Shown: positions 19,544 through 29,835 of the stretch, in pieces
Position numbering within the stretch: position 1 is the stretch's first letter
How the letters are laid out: every line of letters starts with the position of its first letter
DNA from: Deltaproteobacteria bacterium RIFCSPLOWO2_12_FULL_60_19
GTDB taxonomy: Bacteria > Desulfobacterota > Binatia > UBA9968
DNA length: 38,581 nucleotides
Direction: 5' to 3'
Assembly: GCA_001798595.1 (NCBI GenBank)
Contig: MGSS01000147.1
Coordinates: 1-38,581 of the forward strand
Notes under the pieces: model-generated
The model's database searches: none
What the model was told of the DNA's origin: nothing
The model's input: the letters and a program-made list of their open reading frames with translations, nothing else
Program-made: the position numbers and the translations under genes

Positions 19544-20029
19544 TTACTGGAGCTGCTGCTGGATCGCCTCGATCGCCTGGCGGGCGAACGGATAATTCGG
19601 CTCGATGGCCAAGGCCCGCTCGAATTCCTCCAAGGCTCGCTTCAGCATCCCTTTCGCAAGATAGACCCGGCCGAGATTGCAGTGCGGGTAGTGATAGGCT
19701 TCGTAGCGGCGCGCGCGCATCGCTTTTTCGAGCCAGGGAATCGCTTCGTCCATTTGTCCCAGGTTGATGAGGTAGGCGCCGATGTCGTTGTACGGGTTGC
19801 CGAAGTCCGGGTCGACGGCGATCGCCTTTTTGCACTCCTCGATCGCCTCTTCGTAGTATCCTTGAAAACTGTACGTCCAGCCGAGAAAAGTGTGTGCCTC
19901 CGCGGTGGGGTGGGCGTGAATCGATTCGCGGTAGAGCCGGACCGCCTCGTCCAACTCTCCCTGCATCTGGCGACGATGGGCCTCGTGAAACAACTTGACG
20001 GCTCGCTCGAGGCTGGCTTTCTCGTCCAT
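19544..20029 (-). CDS. TPR-repeat protein
   Basis: A 161-residue protein made of about four tetratricopeptide repeats: LDEAVRLYRESIHAHPTAE, then YYEEAIEECKKAIAVDPDF, MDEAIPWLEKAMRARRYE and LKRALEEFERALAIEPNY. Such scaffolds bind partner peptides. There is no signal peptide, so it is cytoplasmic. The start ATG at 20029 is 2 bases after the stop of the small zinc-ribbon gene; longer frames starting at 20203 overlap that gene in another frame and are not used. Partners are unknown. The 150-base gap downstream (19394-19543) holds no gene that I can support. Confidence 0.85.
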   Translation of the reverse strand: MDEKASLERAVKLFHEAHRRQMQGELDEAVRLYRESIHAHPTAEAHTFLGWTYSFQGYYEEAIEECKKAIAVDPDFGNPYNDIGAYLINLGQMDEAIPWLEKAMRARRYEAYHYPHCNLGRVYLAKGMLKRALEEFERALAIEPNYPFARQAIEAIQQQLQ

Positions 20030-20031
20030 GG

Positions 20032-20220
20032 CTATTTTTTTCGCTCCGGCGGCGGGGCCGGAGTCACGCCCTGTTTTTTCAGCTCCTGTTCCGCTTGAGC
20101 GCGCTCGCCTGCCTGCTGCCCCATCGCCTCCCGGCGAATGCGGTCCTGGCAGGGATCGCAGATCGCGCCTTTGAGCGGAGCGGCCTTGCCGCAGATCATA
20201 CACTTCTTGGCATCGGCCAT
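20032..20220 (-). CDS. Small zinc-ribbon protein
   Basis: A 62-residue protein with two CxxC knuckles: KKCMICGKA at the N-terminus and GAICDPCQDRIRR, followed by an alpha-helical region rich in Gln, Glu and Ala (QQAGERAQAEQ) and a Pro-rich, basic tail. It likely binds one zinc. It is the first gene of a two-gene unit with the TPR protein, joined by a 2-base gap. The promoter at 20229-20256 places the transcript start at or next to the ATG, so it may be translated leaderless. Function unknown. Confidence 0.75.
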   Translation of the reverse strand: MADAKKCMICGKAAPLKGAICDPCQDRIRREAMGQQAGERAQAEQELKKQGVTPAPPPERKK

Positions 20221-20350: not shown

Positions 20351-20426
20351 TTCTTTGCGCCTTTGCGCGAGATTCTTTTTGTCCGATCTATTTTTACTCG
20401 CGCCAAGACGCCAAGGTCGCAAAGAA
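20351..20426. repeat. Imperfect inverted repeat
   Basis: The arm TTCTTTGCGCCTTTGCGCGAG (split over 20351-20371) pairs imperfectly with CTCGCGCCAAGACGCCAAGG...AAAGAA (20397-20426), around a T-rich loop. It fills most of the 20221-20443 interval, between the zinc-ribbon promoter and the end of the OB-fold gene. The sequence class (CTTTGCGCC/TTTGCGCGA) is a common dispersed intergenic palindrome in environmental genomes, from memory. Confidence 0.5.
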
Positions 20427-20443: not shown

Positions 20444-20923
20444 TTAGTCCAATAACTTAATCTGCCGCGGATCTTCGAGAATCATCTCCAGGCCGTATTG
20501 CGGGTGGTCTTTGATCTCGCCCGTCACCTCGATCTCTTTTCCCTCGAAGCTTTGCGGCGAGCGTTTTTGTTTTTCGAACAGCTCTACGGCGGAAGCGAAG
20601 ATCACGGCGGTGAACGAAGAGCGGGAAGGGCCGAAGTTGATAAAGTACGTGTTGCTTTTCTCCGAGCGGCCGACGCGAAAAACCCGGCCGCGGATTTTCG
20701 CCCGCGTCCCGGCGAGCGCCCTTATTTTTTCCACTTCACGCGCTTCCAGCAGCGGAAGCTCGGCAGGCGGAGGCGGCGGCGCGGGCAGGGGGGCGAACAC
20801 GACCGGGTGGCCGCCGCTTTCCGTGGCGGGACGATCCCAGCGCTGATAGAGGACGTGGCTGAGCAGTCCGGCGAAAAATGCGCCGGCGATCAACAGACTT
20901 ACGGTCGTCCGGCTGCCGCTCAT
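20444..20923 (-). CDS. Membrane-anchored OB-fold protein
   Basis: A 159-residue protein with one N-terminal membrane segment (VSLLIAGAFFAGLLSHVLY), a Pro-rich linker (PLPAPPPPPAEL) and a C-terminal OB-fold-like domain: AKIRGRVFRVGRSEKSNTYF, then FTAVIFASAVELF, GKEIEVTGEIKDHPQYGLEM and ILEDPRQIKLLD. The last domain resembles the OB/staphylococcal-nuclease-like modules found beside PLD-type nucleases. It overlaps the upstream HKD gene by 4 bases (ATGA), which indicates coupled translation. It probably faces the periplasm. The nucleic-acid or ligand target is unknown. Confidence 0.75.
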   Translation of the reverse strand: MSGSRTTVSLLIAGAFFAGLLSHVLYQRWDRPATESGGHPVVFAPLPAPPPPPAELPLLEAREVEKIRALAGTRAKIRGRVFRVGRSEKSNTYFINFGPSRSSFTAVIFASAVELFEKQKRSPQSFEGKEIEVTGEIKDHPQYGLEMILEDPRQIKLLD

Positions 20924-21447
20924 CGTTTTTTCTCCCAGATGCGGAAGAACTCTTTACGGTATTCTTCCGCCAGCGCGCCGGCGTCGCGGAAGAGCAGCAG
21001 GTTTTCGTCGTTGAAGGCCTCCGCCGACGCCGTCCAGTTATAAGAACCCGTGAGAACGACCTTGCGGTCGATCACGGCGAATTTCTGATGCATGAGTCCC
21101 GGGCTCTTTCCTCGATCGAGGCCGGAGACGCGCCTCACGGCGATCCGCTGCTGCTCAAGGAACGATCGCTTGGAAGTTTCATTGCCGGCGTCGAACTCCT
21201 GGTCCACGATCACCTGCACCTTCACGCCGCGCTGGGCCGCTTTGACCAGCGACCACGCCAGCTCGTCGCTGGTAAAGGCGTAGACGGCGACGAGCAGCTC
21301 TTTCTCGGCCCGGCCGATCTCGCGCAGGATGTGGCTCGCGCATTTGCCGTAAGGGCTGAAGCAGGTGTGCACGGCCATGGCCGCTACCGCGGGGGAAATG
21401 GAAATTGCAAAATGAAAAATGCAAAGTGCAAAAGTAAAGACTTTCAT
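20920..21447 (-). CDS. Secreted single-HKD phospholipase D-family nuclease (Nuc-like)
   Basis: A 175-residue PLD-superfamily protein with one HKD motif: H120-Q-K122...D127 (LMHQKFAVIDRKV) followed by TGSYNWT. It matches the Nuc-type enzymes, which dimerise to form one active site and cut DNA/RNA or phospholipids. It has a typical export signal (hydrophobic stretch to about AVAA, residues 20-23). The start ATG at 21447 overlaps the holA stop (ATGA); an in-frame ATG at 21486 would add 13 residues inside holA and is less likely. Unusually, the signal peptide (FTFALCIFHFAISIS) is encoded by an AT-rich palindromic repeat. The stop overlaps the start of the OB-fold gene. Confidence 0.85.
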   Translation of the reverse strand: MKVFTFALCIFHFAISISPAVAAMAVHTCFSPYGKCASHILREIGRAEKELLVAVYAFTSDELAWSLVKAAQRGVKVQVIVDQEFDAGNETSKRSFLEQQRIAVRRVSGLDRGKSPGLMHQKFAVIDRKVVLTGSYNWTASAEAFNDENLLLFRDAGALAEEYRKEFFRIWEKKR

Positions 21448-21462
21448 TTTGCACTTTGCATT
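21418..21462. repeat. AT-rich palindromic repeat at the holA/nuclease junction
   Basis: Perfect 16-base arms (AATGCAAAGTGCAAAA at 21418-21433 and TTTTGCACTTTGCATT at 21447-21462) surround a 13-base loop. A second member of the family lies at 25160-25207. The element covers the last codons and stop of holA and the start of the nuclease, and much of the nuclease signal sequence lies within and beside it (21390-21447). Confidence 0.8.
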
Positions 21463-22805
21463 GAAACGGCTCGGCGTTTTTCGCACATCTCCAGGATCAG
21501 CCGCTCCATGACGATGCGCGGAGAGTTGCCGCTCGATTTGAGGCGGATGTCCGCTTGATAGATGAGCTTAAGGTATCGCGCGAGTTCCGCGGCGGCGAAG
21601 TTCTCGGCGCTCTTAAAGCTCAGGTAAGCGGCCCAGGGGTGGCCCGGCAGGGAAACCGTGCTGTCTTGAAGCACGCTTCGTTGAAACTGCTCATAGCTCA
21701 TCCCTTTGCTCCAACGCCGCCGCTCCCCGTCGATCACTTCGCGCGCCTGCAGGAGCTGTCTCACCTTGCCGGCGATCGGCCCCAGGAGCTTGAGGGGATG
21801 ATCCCCCTGCGCCATTAGACGGGACAATTGGTTGAGCGCCGCAACGGAGTCCCGCGCGGCGAGCGCGTTGGTAAGGTCGAAGATCCAGCCCTCTCCCTGG
21901 TCGAGAAAGATCGCATCCACGTCCTTTGCCGTAATCCCCGGCTCCTGTCCCACGTAGAGCAGGAGTTTCACCATTTCCTGTTGAAAGGCCCGGAGGTCCG
22001 TCCCCGCCCGCGCGAGAACCATCTCTCTGGCGCGCGCGTCTATTTTTTTGCCGCCCTCGCGCACGCCGCGGTCGAGCCATTGCGCCAACACCTCGCGGCT
22101 CAGCTTGCCGGTCTTGTCCCGCTCCACGGCGAGGTCGAGGACATTTCCTTTTTCAGCGAACTTTTTATATTGGCGCATTCTGCGGTCTACCTGCGCCGTC
22201 GTCACTAAAAGCGCGCCCCAGGGCGGGAGGCCCTGATCGGCCAGCGCCGCGAGCCTGTCGGCTTCGCTGCCGCCCGGCTGTTTCAAGGTCAACCCCTGCT
22301 CGCGGCAGAAATCCAACAGAGCTTCGATCTCCCGCAGAGTCTCCTTGCCCGCGTCGCCGAGGAGCCCGGCGATCTCATGAGCGGAGTTTCGCGGCTCCAC
22401 TCTCGCCCAGCGCTCCTGCGTCCAGCCTTCGAGCCGGAGCCGCTCCAGCAAAACGCGCGCCGCTTCGTCCCGCCTGCCTTCGCCCAGGAGCTTGAGCGTC
22501 TTCTCCCCGATCTCGTCTTTGCTCTCCGGCGAGGCAAAGTAGGGCGCGTTTTCAACCCAGACGAGCTTGGCGCCCGGAAAAAACGGCGGTGTCATGAGCG
22601 CCGCCTCGATTTGATCCCACGAGGCCGAGCGCCCGTCGAAGCGCTCCAGGTTGAAGGAGCGATTTTCCGCCGGGACCAGAGCGTCGAGCAGCGCCTGAGC
22701 TGCGGCGTGCACTTGGAAATCGTCGCCGTGGAGCAGGAAAAGGGCGGGCCCTTTTTTCTGGCGGATGTCGGCAAGCAGCGATTCCAGATTGCGTTTCACA
22801 CCCAA
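21444..22805 (-). CDS. holA: DNA polymerase III subunit delta (clamp-loader delta)
   Basis: A 453-residue delta subunit of the clamp loader. The fold signatures are FLLHGDDFQVHAAAQALL (N-terminal AAA-like strand and P-loop remnant), LVWVENAP, then RAFQQEMVKLLLYVG, ITAKDVDAI and the RYLKLIYQADIRLKSS C-terminal domain. It opens the beta clamp and belongs to the replisome. It is longer than usual (about 340): residues 90-192 insert a Glu/Arg-rich helical segment (EGRRDEAARVLLERL, AHEIAGLLGD) before the VTTAQVD strand. The last residues (SMQSAK) and stop come from the palindromic repeat at 21418-21462. The upstream small gene ends 3 bases before its ATG. Confidence 0.92.
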   Translation of the reverse strand: MGVKRNLESLLADIRQKKGPALFLLHGDDFQVHAAAQALLDALVPAENRSFNLERFDGRSASWDQIEAALMTPPFFPGAKLVWVENAPYFASPESKDEIGEKTLKLLGEGRRDEAARVLLERLRLEGWTQERWARVEPRNSAHEIAGLLGDAGKETLREIEALLDFCREQGLTLKQPGGSEADRLAALADQGLPPWGALLVTTAQVDRRMRQYKKFAEKGNVLDLAVERDKTGKLSREVLAQWLDRGVREGGKKIDARAREMVLARAGTDLRAFQQEMVKLLLYVGQEPGITAKDVDAIFLDQGEGWIFDLTNALAARDSVAALNQLSRLMAQGDHPLKLLGPIAGKVRQLLQAREVIDGERRRWSKGMSYEQFQRSVLQDSTVSLPGHPWAAYLSFKSAENFAAAELARYLKLIYQADIRLKSSGNSPRIVMERLILEMCEKRRAVSMQSAK

Positions 22806-24145: not shown

Positions 24146-24186
24146 TCAATGATCCCTCACAGCGAACAAAGATTCGGAGGTTGATA

Positions 24187-25131
24187 ATGCGTTTTTTAAC
24201 TTTCGTGCGGAAGAGTGAAAACCGGTTGGGTCTGATGGGACCGGAGGAGCAGGTGATCGATCTGGCGGAGCTTAACCGGCGGTATCTTAAAGCGGGTGCC
24301 GCGCCCTATCTCGACAACATGCAGGCATTTATCGAGGCGGGCGGAAAAGCGCTCAGCGTCGCAAAGAAAGCCGCCAAATATGTGGCGGGAAAGGATGCGG
24401 AGGGGCAGAAAAAACTGCGCCAGGCCGGCGCGCTCGTGAAACTCAACCAGGTGAAGATTCTCTCTCCCATTCCCTGGCCGCGCAAGAACGTCGTTCTTCT
24501 GGGCGTCAACTATAAGGAGCACATTGAAGAGGGGGCGCGGGCAAGAGACATCGAGCTTAAATATCCCGAGGCGCCGGTCTTTTTTACCAAGCCGGCGACT
24601 TCGGTCATCGGCCAGTTCGGCAAAGTGGTTCACCACAAGGCGACGGAGAAGCTCGACTACGAAGTCGAATTGGCGGTGGTGATGGGCAAAAAGGGGCGCG
24701 ACATCCCCAAGGACAAAGCTTACGACTACATCTTCGGCTACACGATCTGCCTCGACATGACGGCGCGCGATCTCCAGCGCAAGCACGGCCAATGGTTCAA
24801 GGGCAAGTCGCTCGATACGTATTGTCCGTTGGGGCCGTGGATCGTCCACAAGAGCGCGATTCCCGATCCGCAGAAGCTGCGCCTCATCTGCCGGGTGAAC
24901 GGCCAGGTGATGCAGAACGACAACACCGACAACATGATTTTCGATATCGCAACCACGATCGAGTCGCTCTCGAGCGGCATGACGCTGGAGCCGGGCGAAA
25001 TCATCAGCACGGGCACGCCCTCGGGCGTCGGCTTCGCCCGCGTGCCGCCATTTTTCTTAAAGCCCGGCGACAAGGTGGAGGCGGATATCGAGAGGATCGG
25101 CGTTCTTCAGGTGGAAATTGTTGCGCCCTAG
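24187..25131 (+). CDS. Fumarylacetoacetase-family hydrolase
   Basis: A 314-residue protein. The C-terminal 220 residues match the FAH fold: NVVLLGVNYKEHIEE, EAPVFFTKPATSVIG, then the divalent-metal ligands in LDYEVELAVVMG (Glu, Glu) and CLDMTARDLQ (Asp), with TGTPSGVGF near the end. Members hydrolyse or hydrate acylpyruvates, cut fumarylacetoacetate, or decarboxylate oxaloacetate-like acids in aromatic and meta-cleavage pathways. The N-terminal 90 residues form the small extra domain of the longer subfamily. The start ATG at 24187 has GGAGG 7 bases upstream; a TTG at 24181 is less likely. A promoter lies at 24117-24145. It is possibly linked to the bicupin dioxygenases farther along (inference). 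Confidence 0.88.
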   Translation: MRFLTFVRKSENRLGLMGPEEQVIDLAELNRRYLKAGAAPYLDNMQAFIEAGGKALSVAKKAAKYVAGKDAEGQKKLRQAGALVKLNQVKILSPIPWPRKNVVLLGVNYKEHIEEGARARDIELKYPEAPVFFTKPATSVIGQFGKVVHHKATEKLDYEVELAVVMGKKGRDIPKDKAYDYIFGYTICLDMTARDLQRKHGQWFKGKSLDTYCPLGPWIVHKSAIPDPQKLRLICRVNGQVMQNDNTDNMIFDIATTIESLSSGMTLEPGEIISTGTPSGVGFARVPPFFLKPGDKVEADIERIGVLQVEIVAP

Positions 25132-25159
25132 GTCGGCACAATGCAAAATGAAAATCGCA

Positions 25160-25207
25160 AAATGTAAAATGCAAAATTTTTCAACTTAAAATTTTCACTT
25201 TACATTT
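25160..25207. repeat. AT-rich palindromic repeat, second copy of the 21418-21462 family
   Basis: The arm AAATGTAAAATGCAAAATTTT (25160-25180) pairs with AAAATTTTCACTTTACATTT (25188-25207) with one base difference and one bulge, around TCAACTT. The preceding bases GCACAATGCAAAATGAAAAT are the same word family as in the first copy. It lies between the FAH and MEMO genes and codes for nothing. Confidence 0.6.
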
Positions 25208-25227
25208 TAAATTGAGGTTTGGGGTTC

Positions 25228-26073
25228 ATGGCCCAGGTCAGGTCTTCCGCCGTCGCGGGCTCTTTCTATCCGGCGGAGCCCGAAGAGCTTAAAAAACTTC
25301 TGCACGACTGTTTCGTCTCAAACCCGCTGGGACCGCGGGGCGTAAAGTCTCCCACCGCTTCGCTCCTGGGCGGCATGGTGCCGCACGCGGGATATATTTA
25401 CTCCGGCCCGTGCGCCGCGCATCTCTACTCGGCTTTCGAAGACGATATTCAGTGCGTCATTCTCCTCGGCGTAAACCACCGCGGTCGTGGATCAAGAGCC
25501 GCGCTCAGCCCCGCGGAATCCTGGCAGACGCCGCTGGGGAGCGTCAGCGTCGATCGCGCTCTGGGAGAGCAGTTGAAGCGCGAAGTCGATTTTCTGGCCG
25601 ATGATGCCGGCCCCCACCGCGAAGAGCACAGCATCGAAGTCCAACTGCCGTTTCTCCAGAGCGTCCTCGGAGATTTCGGCCTTCTCCCCATCTCCCTCTC
25701 TCATCTGACACTCGAAGACTGCAGCCGGCTAGGGCAAGCGATCGCGCGCTCGTACAACGCAAATCGAGCCTTAAATAAAAAGACGCTCCTGCTCGCCAGC
25801 AGCGACCTCAACCACTATCTCTCTCCCGAAGAGACCGAGCGGTTGGACCGGATGGCGCTGGAAAAAGTTCTCGCGCTCGATCCGGCGGGCTTGCTTGAGA
25901 CGGTCGAGAAGAACGATATCAGCATGTGCGGTGTCTTTCCTACGGTCGTTTTACTTTTCGCCGCCAATGCCCTCGGCGCCCGGCAGTCGCGGCTGCTCAA
26001 GCATTGCCACTCCGGCGACGCGGCGCCGATGCAGGAAGTCGTCGGCTACGCCAGCGTCGCGGTGGAGTTTTAG
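25228..26073 (+). CDS. MEMO1-family protein (AmmeMemoRadiSam system protein B)
   Basis: A 281-residue protein of the MEMO/ligand-binding LigB-like fold: MVPHAGYIYSGPCAAH, LLGVNHRG, then EEHSIEVQLPFLQ and LASSDLNHYLS, with conserved His residues of a metal-site-like pocket (H in VPHAGY, in GVNH, in EEHS and in LNHY). MEMO proteins are related to class III nonhaem iron dioxygenases and often sit beside AMMECR1 and radical-SAM genes. Neither neighbour is present in this window. I chose ATG at 25228 over TTG at 25219. It is 96 bases downstream of the FAH gene and may share its transcript. The function of the bacterial form is unsettled; a Cu/Fe redox role has been proposed for MEMO1. Confidence 0.85.
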   Translation: MAQVRSSAVAGSFYPAEPEELKKLLHDCFVSNPLGPRGVKSPTASLLGGMVPHAGYIYSGPCAAHLYSAFEDDIQCVILLGVNHRGRGSRAALSPAESWQTPLGSVSVDRALGEQLKREVDFLADDAGPHREEHSIEVQLPFLQSVLGDFGLLPISLSHLTLEDCSRLGQAIARSYNANRALNKKTLLLASSDLNHYLSPEETERLDRMALEKVLALDPAGLLETVEKNDISMCGVFPTVVLLFAANALGARQSRLLKHCHSGDAAPMQEVVGYASVAVEF

Positions 26074-29615: not shown

Positions 29616-29703
29616 AGGCACTATAAGACACGTGCGCTGACCTGTCAAGTTTCACCGGCGCTACCTAAGTTTGACTTGCCCTGACCTATTTGTTAGTTCT
29701 CTC

Positions 29704-29803
29704 CTCATGCTAGGGGTGTCCGCCTAAGGCGGACTGAGAGTCTGCTTCTGGCAGGCAACCCTCTGAACCTGATCCGGATCGTGCCGGCGTAGGGAAGCGT
29801 GAG
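29704..29803 (+). promoter_or_regulatory. TPP riboswitch (THI element)
   Basis: The consensus is textbook: P1 CTCATGC (29704-29710) with GCGTGAG (29797-29803), GGGGTGTCC, CTGAGAG in the pyrimidine-binding loop, then ACCCTCTGAACCTGATCCGG and the pyrophosphate-binding part GTGCCGGCGTAGGGAAGC. It lies about 95 bases before thiS. Thiamine pyrophosphate binding should lower expression of thiS-thiG-thiE. Confidence 0.95.
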
Positions 29804-29810
29804 AGTCGCT

Positions 29811-29835
29811 GTCCCTTCCGCTTTTGCGGCGGGAC
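29811..29835 (+). other. Expression-platform hairpin after the TPP aptamer
   Basis: GTCCC-TT-CCGC-TTTT-GCGG-C-GGGAC folds into a hairpin between the aptamer and the terminator. It is well placed to compete with, or be part of, the antiterminator fold. Confidence 0.5.

Follow-up and report, generated by a model that had tools for sequence, protein, structure and literature searches.

How does a short palindrome that lies across the boundary of two genes come to be read as part of a protein? In the window (the whole stretch of DNA that was analysed, 38,581 nt), an inverted repeat overlaps both the end of holA and the beginning of a nuclease gene. From the sequence comparisons below, we consider it very probable that a dispersed intercistronic palindrome of 7-nt units (heptads) is translated here as the n- and h-region of the Sec signal peptide of the nuclease. 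A dispersed, A/T-rich palindrome would have come to sit at the holA stop and nuclease start, and its translation would supply these two regions, with the c-region coming from outside the element. The resulting leader would export the nuclease. The features concerned are:

21444..22805, minus strand: holA, DNA polymerase III delta subunit (PF06144, E 1.1e-8; PF21694, E 7.2e-15), with the start codon (22805) as mechanically listed.
20920..21447, minus strand: PLD-family nuclease, 175 aa (PLDc_2, E 3.3e-29).
21379..21447, minus strand: putative signal peptide of the nuclease, MKVFTFALCIFHFAISISPAVAA (best 10-residue hydropathy 2.41, n-charge +1).
21397..21462, no strand assigned: TGCAAAA-type heptad palindrome (family F1), from unit array, repeat search and RNA fold.
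21418..21433, no strand assigned: left perfect 16-nt arm.
21447..21462, no strand assigned: right perfect 16-nt arm.
25141..25215, no strand assigned: second F1 element in the window (arms of 21 nt, 86% complementary).

The original prediction described a perfect 16-base inverted repeat spanning the last holA codons, the stop and the nuclease start, and the two arms were located as such. They belong to longer arms of 22 nt (21418-21439 / 21441-21462, 91% complementary) with extra heptads at 21397-21417, and the whole array is composed of TGCAAAA, TGCAAAG, TGAAAAA and their complements. The minus-strand fold of the element reached -21.5 kcal/mol (z -5.8), which none of 200 shuffles equalled. 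The holA tail (SMQSAK-TGA) ends within the element, which encodes MQSAK and the stop codon (TGA, 21446-21444). With the nuclease ATG at 21447-21445, stop and start overlap as ATGA. The nuclease itself has solved-structure (PDB) relatives in mitochondrial cardiolipin hydrolase, NucT and endonuclease 1byr.

It had been proposed that nuclease residues 1 to about 20 come from the repeat and its flank. This held for residues 1-17 (MKVFTFALCIFHFAISI; 21447-21397), which make up the n- and h-region, and not for the whole leader, since SPAVAA lies outside the element. The predicted leader has the layout of a Sec signal peptide (MK / VFTFALCIFHFAISI / SPAVAA), with a positive n-region, a hydrophobic h-region and small residues at -3/-1; its cleavage site was judged by eye, and our leader assignments are based on hydropathy, charge and eye. 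No in-frame ATG, GTG or TTG occurs between the nuclease ATG (21447) and Met24, and an in-frame GTG lies upstream at 21486. A start at Met24 could give a leaderless protein and a start at the GTG a longer one.

Searching 77 genomes (own included) at the protein level yielded 22 nuclease orthologues of at least 57% identity, own included, distributed over 22 of the family's 25 genomes. Fifteen named loci, of at least 58% identity, came from 13 'Deltaproteobacteria' MAGs, one 'Candidatus Binatia' and one 'Syntrophobacter sp.' In all 22 orthologues the nuclease frame remained open back to a start upstream, and this start overlapped the holA stop by 4 nt in 16 of them. A tree built on the mature nuclease alone (154 columns) contained a nine-genome clade (support 100/99), within which four leaders were of the F1 type (TTTTGCA heptads, the TGCAAAA type; G000, G004, G006 and G012, 6-7 unit matches each) and three of a second type, F2 (TTTTTAC/TTTTGCC heptads, with GTAAAAA/GGCAAAA units; G002, G018 and G022, 3-7 unit matches). 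The G007 leader was a decayed hairpin (MKTEKRK..., 3 F1 matches) and that of G009 belonged to neither type. Even within the heptad leaders the state of the repeat varied: the G018 leader had only a short A-rich arm, and the heptads of G006 had decayed while the frame was still hydrophobic (FVVCVFHFALLF).

Relatives without the repeat were checked for the same signal peptide, and the 13 orthologues outside the clade, as well as G009, proved to have unrelated leaders. No heptad arrays were found in the leaders of those 13 (11 had no unit match and two had one) or in that of G009. Self-match at lag 7 was 0.38-0.54 in the seven heptad leaders versus 0.17-0.35 in the other 15. With seven of the nine clade leaders clearly of repeat type, the relatives support the view that a dispersed palindrome was captured as coding sequence and would now serve as the nuclease leader. 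Capture by two genes, as first suggested, fared less evenly: the orthologue comparison bears it out for the nuclease leader, and the share of holA is minor because the holA tail past the conserved MERLILEMC varies among aligned relatives.

The comparison also went beyond the original prediction, in that sister species bear other repeat families at the holA/nuclease junction. The arrival of the element appears to date to around the base of this nine-genome clade. Within the tree, G002 was sister to G000 (97/91) and G018/G022 joined G004 (96/85); if F1 is ancestral, one type thus replaced the other at least twice, and we infer that F2 was the newcomer on those occasions. Five of the seven heptad leaders, from both the F1 and the F2 group, had WAG directly ahead of the mature domain (G002 has RAG and the window VAA). 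Outside the clade, the n-region of the G005 leader (MRQKATAGATGRSPLLIF...) contained a 28-nt perfect GC-rich palindrome (L046; G005:C749:4367-4388), whose core GGGGCGACCGGCCGGTCGCCCC occurred at 13 places in G005, 18 in G000 and one in G013, the genus mate of G005 (reversed pattern: none). This palindrome was absent from the nuclease leader of G013. With F1, F2 and the GC-rich repeat, the leader of one gene has therefore received three kinds of palindrome.

The F1 palindrome is by no means restricted to the nuclease gene. Its 14-mer TTTTGCACTTTGCA matched 115 places in the 4.19-Mb genome with at most one mismatch, compared with one place for the reversed pattern, and these places were mostly intercistronic, as for a dispersed extragenic palindrome in many copies. 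The recurrence that had been noticed near 25160-25207 was a real copy (25141-25215) between the co-directional ORFs 24181-25131 (+) and 25219-26073 (+). It begins ~10 nt past the stop codon of the former, and its fold was weaker than that of the junction element (z -2.1; equalled by 6 of 200 shuffles). Among the matches listed, 74 elements were at least 27 bp long, and 68 of these lay between co-directional genes, four between divergent and one between convergent genes, with one at an edge. In a pooled set from the own genome and five relatives (200 merged elements, 12 edge elements omitted), 171 of 188 elements were co-directional, 11 divergent and 6 convergent, whereas the 282 element-free junctions of the same loci comprised 235, 19 and 28, respectively (Fisher p 0.02), which amounts to a modest orientation bias. 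Position relative to the upstream stop was the sharper signal: 140 of 169 co-directional elements started within 25 nt of it, with a median of 5 nt past the stop. These figures rest on samples taken around pattern matches (other elements of G006 were left out), on type labels from regular expressions that overlap slightly, and on our own codon-usage gene calls rather than annotation.

The dispersal of F1 suggests that the palindrome may be mobile, as was originally proposed. REP elements, which are mobilised by RAYT, are likewise dispersed short palindromes near gene ends. A link of our elements to RAYT was rejected: F1 and F2 units were absent from the loci (L120-L122; 2.0-3.3 kb) of the three PF01797 (Y1_Tnp) matches of the genome. 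Across the phylum sample F1 was patchy, with any match in 88 of 148 genomes and high counts in few (e.g., 81 in G142 and 53 in G135). F1 units were also common in a distant family within the phylum (G142, G106; loci L289-L333), often as single arms without a second. In the 45 loci of these two genomes, arrays of a single arm were numerous and convincing leaders few (genes by longest ORF only, some stretches masked), and our claims are therefore confined to the own family.

Within the clade, the leader type at the nuclease corresponded to the repeat family that had expanded in each genome. F1 counts were 115, 76, 47 and 38 in the very four genomes that have F1 leaders and did not exceed 11 in any of the other 21. 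F2 counts within the clade were highest in the three F2-leader genomes, G022, G018 and G002 (41, 15 and 14; reversed-pattern controls 6, 2 and 4), followed by G004 (10; control 5). Outside the clade, F2 reached 28 in G023 and 13 each in G008 and G020, with no F2 arrays at the nuclease locus there. We note that G007 (L250-L277) carries many similar copies of another 7-nt palindrome type (GTAAAAA GTTAAAC GTGAAAA GTGAATC ... ATTCAC GTTTCAC CTTTTAC GTTTCAC).

Why would such palindromes lend themselves to encoding leaders? Identical units in a row give one peptide in every frame, since their length of 7 nt is not divisible by 3. Translating each unit in all frames, we obtained FCILHFA for TTTTGCA (mean hydropathy 2.14), FLLFTFY for TTTTTAC (2.0) and FCLLPFA for TTTTGCC (2.27), and CKMQNAK, VKSKK*K and GKRQKAK for their respective complements. 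Some units were unfavourable, such as TTTTGAC, which has a stop, and GTTTCAC, which is barely hydrophobic (0.09). The T-rich arms are thus mostly hydrophobic and the A-rich arms rich in Lys, Gln and Asn, with an ATG in the TGCAAAA type; therefore, a hairpin running from A-rich to T-rich can yield a start, a positive n-region and an h-region on either strand. Open frames were scored as signal-like when they had an ATG, a net positive n-region and an uncharged 10-residue window of mean hydropathy ≥1.7. Of the 714 exit frames in 119 F1 elements, 59 qualified (47 elements had at least one; shuffle mean 2.7), as did 6 of 174 in 29 F2 elements (shuffle mean 0.15) and 17 of 4140 in random pieces of the same loci. 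Signal-like frames were hence ~20 times commoner than in 20 mononucleotide shuffles, an enrichment that partly reflects the order of A-arm and T-arm itself, which the shuffles do not preserve and on which our argument turns.

Element-derived leaders are not limited to the nuclease. When we looked for the repeat inside other genes, as had been recommended, several genes of exported families were found, including LptE and a TctC receptor, which suggests a trait common to several exported proteins and goes further than what was first predicted. Using a strict test with 600-nt flanks, 35 junctions had an element in two or more genomes, and eight of these joined F1-labelled with F2-labelled elements. 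(A looser comparison of 93 pairs with 1300-nt flanks gave false matches, such as infA/rpsM at L209/L229, genes identified by eye, and the strict test was used in its place.) Four of the eight F1-F2 junctions precede exported-type proteins whose leader is wholly or partly derived from the element: the nuclease, an LptM-like lipoprotein, LptE and a pseudopilin. At a fifth (L027/L227), the downstream protein looks exported but has retained a signal of its own, as has the exported gene behind the element at L165 (at 1500).

The LptM-like leaders came from F1 in G004 and G012 (MSLAGLQKSKCKMQNSKSSLNLQFAIFILIFSLASLVGC in G012) and from F2 in G022 (MNQVKRQKAKGGKGICFLLLTFYFCLAVLAGC). The name stems from a sub-threshold Pfam match of a fragment (E 0.0066), the full-length protein having no match at E 0.01, and from a CGKKG motif that we take to be LptM-like. 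LptE (PF04390, 1.2e-9) drew its leader from F2 in G022 (MKEKGKRQKAKGRSQKSGFYLFPFYFCLVTLFGC), and its lipobox stretch in G000 comes after the repeat. One of the pseudopilins passed the N_methyl cut-off (3.3e-7) and the other failed. The TctC receptor of G000 (PF03401, 3e-17) has the leader MKSEKCKTARVNSLILTFAICILHFSFVRDLYAQ, and its next start codon lies 93 nt past the element. Further examples were a TPR-like protein in G004 with an element leader (below Pfam cut-offs), three binding proteins with composite leaders (L011, L063, L064), and a protein at L003 that is EnvC-like by eye, with no Pfam confirmation on a partial sequence. A Pfam scan of four N-terminal fragments gave no match for three. 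Overall, 132 hairpin elements had a downstream gene in the same orientation; 32 of these opened into that gene from a start codon in the element and 100 did not. Some of the 32 frames lead towards cytoplasmic genes that have a start beyond the element, and these frames are probably not used. Units of the TTTTGAA/TTTTAGA type were also seen before prepilin and LptE genes (L077, L079, L199, L185), with leaders like SKFKIQN-GFTLLEV.

A different explanation would be that the palindrome is kept for a role in mRNA, as an intercistronic hairpin for coupling or decay, and that its translation as a leader is incidental. The tight placement after upstream stops, the excess of co-directional junctions and the strong fold of the window element all speak for such a role, as does the fact that most elements are not leaders. 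Nevertheless, the longest perfect arm in G006 is only 5 nt while its frame has stayed hydrophobic, and the two genes overlap by 4 nt in 12 of the 13 relatives outside the clade, with no A/T heptad hairpin present. An mRNA role also leaves unexplained those genes whose sole nearby start is within the element, and we regard it as rather unlikely. T-rich codons are hydrophobic, and leaders are consequently often T-rich; an AT-rich stretch might thus have been selected as a hydrophobic leader and be palindromic by accident. However, the arms match a family with 115 places in the genome, mostly outside leaders, and heptad arrays are lacking in the leaders of the 13 relatives outside the clade. The dispersed family in effect refutes this reading, to which we give almost no credence.

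A closer competitor, with a chance only slightly short of even, holds that the junction is an insertion hot spot at which separate palindrome families inserted independently, with no conversion of one family into another. It would account for the agreement between the type at the nuclease locus and the family expanded in each genome, and for the GC-rich palindrome that is present in the leader of G005 and absent from that of G013. Sharing of junctions across families was, moreover, only modestly above chance. G012 and G022 shared four junctions (0.4-1.6 expected, P 0.0009-0.075), one of the four being labelled F1 in G022, and G000 and G022 also shared four (0.9-3.5 expected, P 0.015-0.46); the expectation varies with the assumed number of usable junctions, and neither value is significant under the strictest. 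Genomes of the same type, on the other hand, shared positions well above chance (11 junctions for G000-G012; 9 for G004-G012, where 0.4-1.4 were expected), so that many element positions are inherited. The element at L204/L222/L167 looks intermediate between the types, and the WAG retained in F1 and F2 leaders alike also argues against independent insertion. Identity of element versus flank followed no uniform pattern, being higher in 7 of 9 G004/G012 pairs and lower in 4 of 6 G018/G022 pairs.

The translated palindrome remains our preferred reading for the nuclease. A wider proposal can be put forward tentatively, and we think it possible though not probable: heptad palindromes may act as frame-independent leader cassettes that repeatedly create or replace Sec, lipoprotein and prepilin leaders. 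Each lineage would rewrite its repeat dialect genome-wide while positions persist, leaving homologues in sister species with unrelated but equally functional leaders.

Prior art for translated repeats as signals exists in enterobacterial repeats. RU-1 and RU-2 are small dispersed repeats read as protein in coding genes, with a repeat-derived signal peptide in YPO1552; signals were likewise predicted for YPO2495 and, from RU-1f, for YE2643, along with membrane helices at nine RU-1f loci (Delihas 2007, PMC2759123). Our case resembles them in that a dispersed repeat is translated, predicted signals included, and, as in YPO1552, supplies a portion of an N-terminal leader that relatives lack. They differ in being MITE-like units of 127-168 bp, and the part of that paper available to us describes no 7-nt unit, frame independence or replacement by a second family in sister species (PMC2759123). 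The same source places Rickettsia palindromic elements inside coding genes (PMC2759123). Like F1, these are repeats translated as protein parts. Unlike F1 leaders, they are inserted within protein bodies, and we know of no report of export signals derived from them.

For 7-nt stems with replacement of unit classes, the nearest parallel appears to be the P6b stem of the Nostoc trnL intron, as far as its description in PMC4476775 goes. That hairpin also consists of 7-nt repeats (Class I TDNGATT, Class II NNTGAGT), and its unit class was repeatedly replaced while the structure was kept, although it is a non-coding, untranslated intron stem at one locus in cyanobacteria (PMC4476775). At the nuclease junction, too, 7-nt units form paired arrays, and the unit class at this one position differs between genomes. 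In the open-access literature we found no report of heptad or frame-independent palindromes serving as signal peptides, Delihas 2007 being the closest.

The arrangement would point to a specific way, open to experiment, in which signal peptides could originate and be exchanged, since a hairpin whose A-rich arm precedes its T-rich arm can encode a leader in all frames when its unit length is not a multiple of three. A second consequence is a warning for annotation, as gene starts within repeats can be real. One protein with leaders from two or three repeat families across related species may further serve as a natural experiment. Two other features of the window were a different inverted repeat at 20351-20426 (TTCTTTGCGCCTTTG / CAAGGTCGCAAAGAA, 15 nt, 87%), between the minus-strand ORFs 20444-20923 and 19544-20203, and a TPP riboswitch at 29702-29812 (+), which scored 75 bits against a gathering threshold of 54.3.
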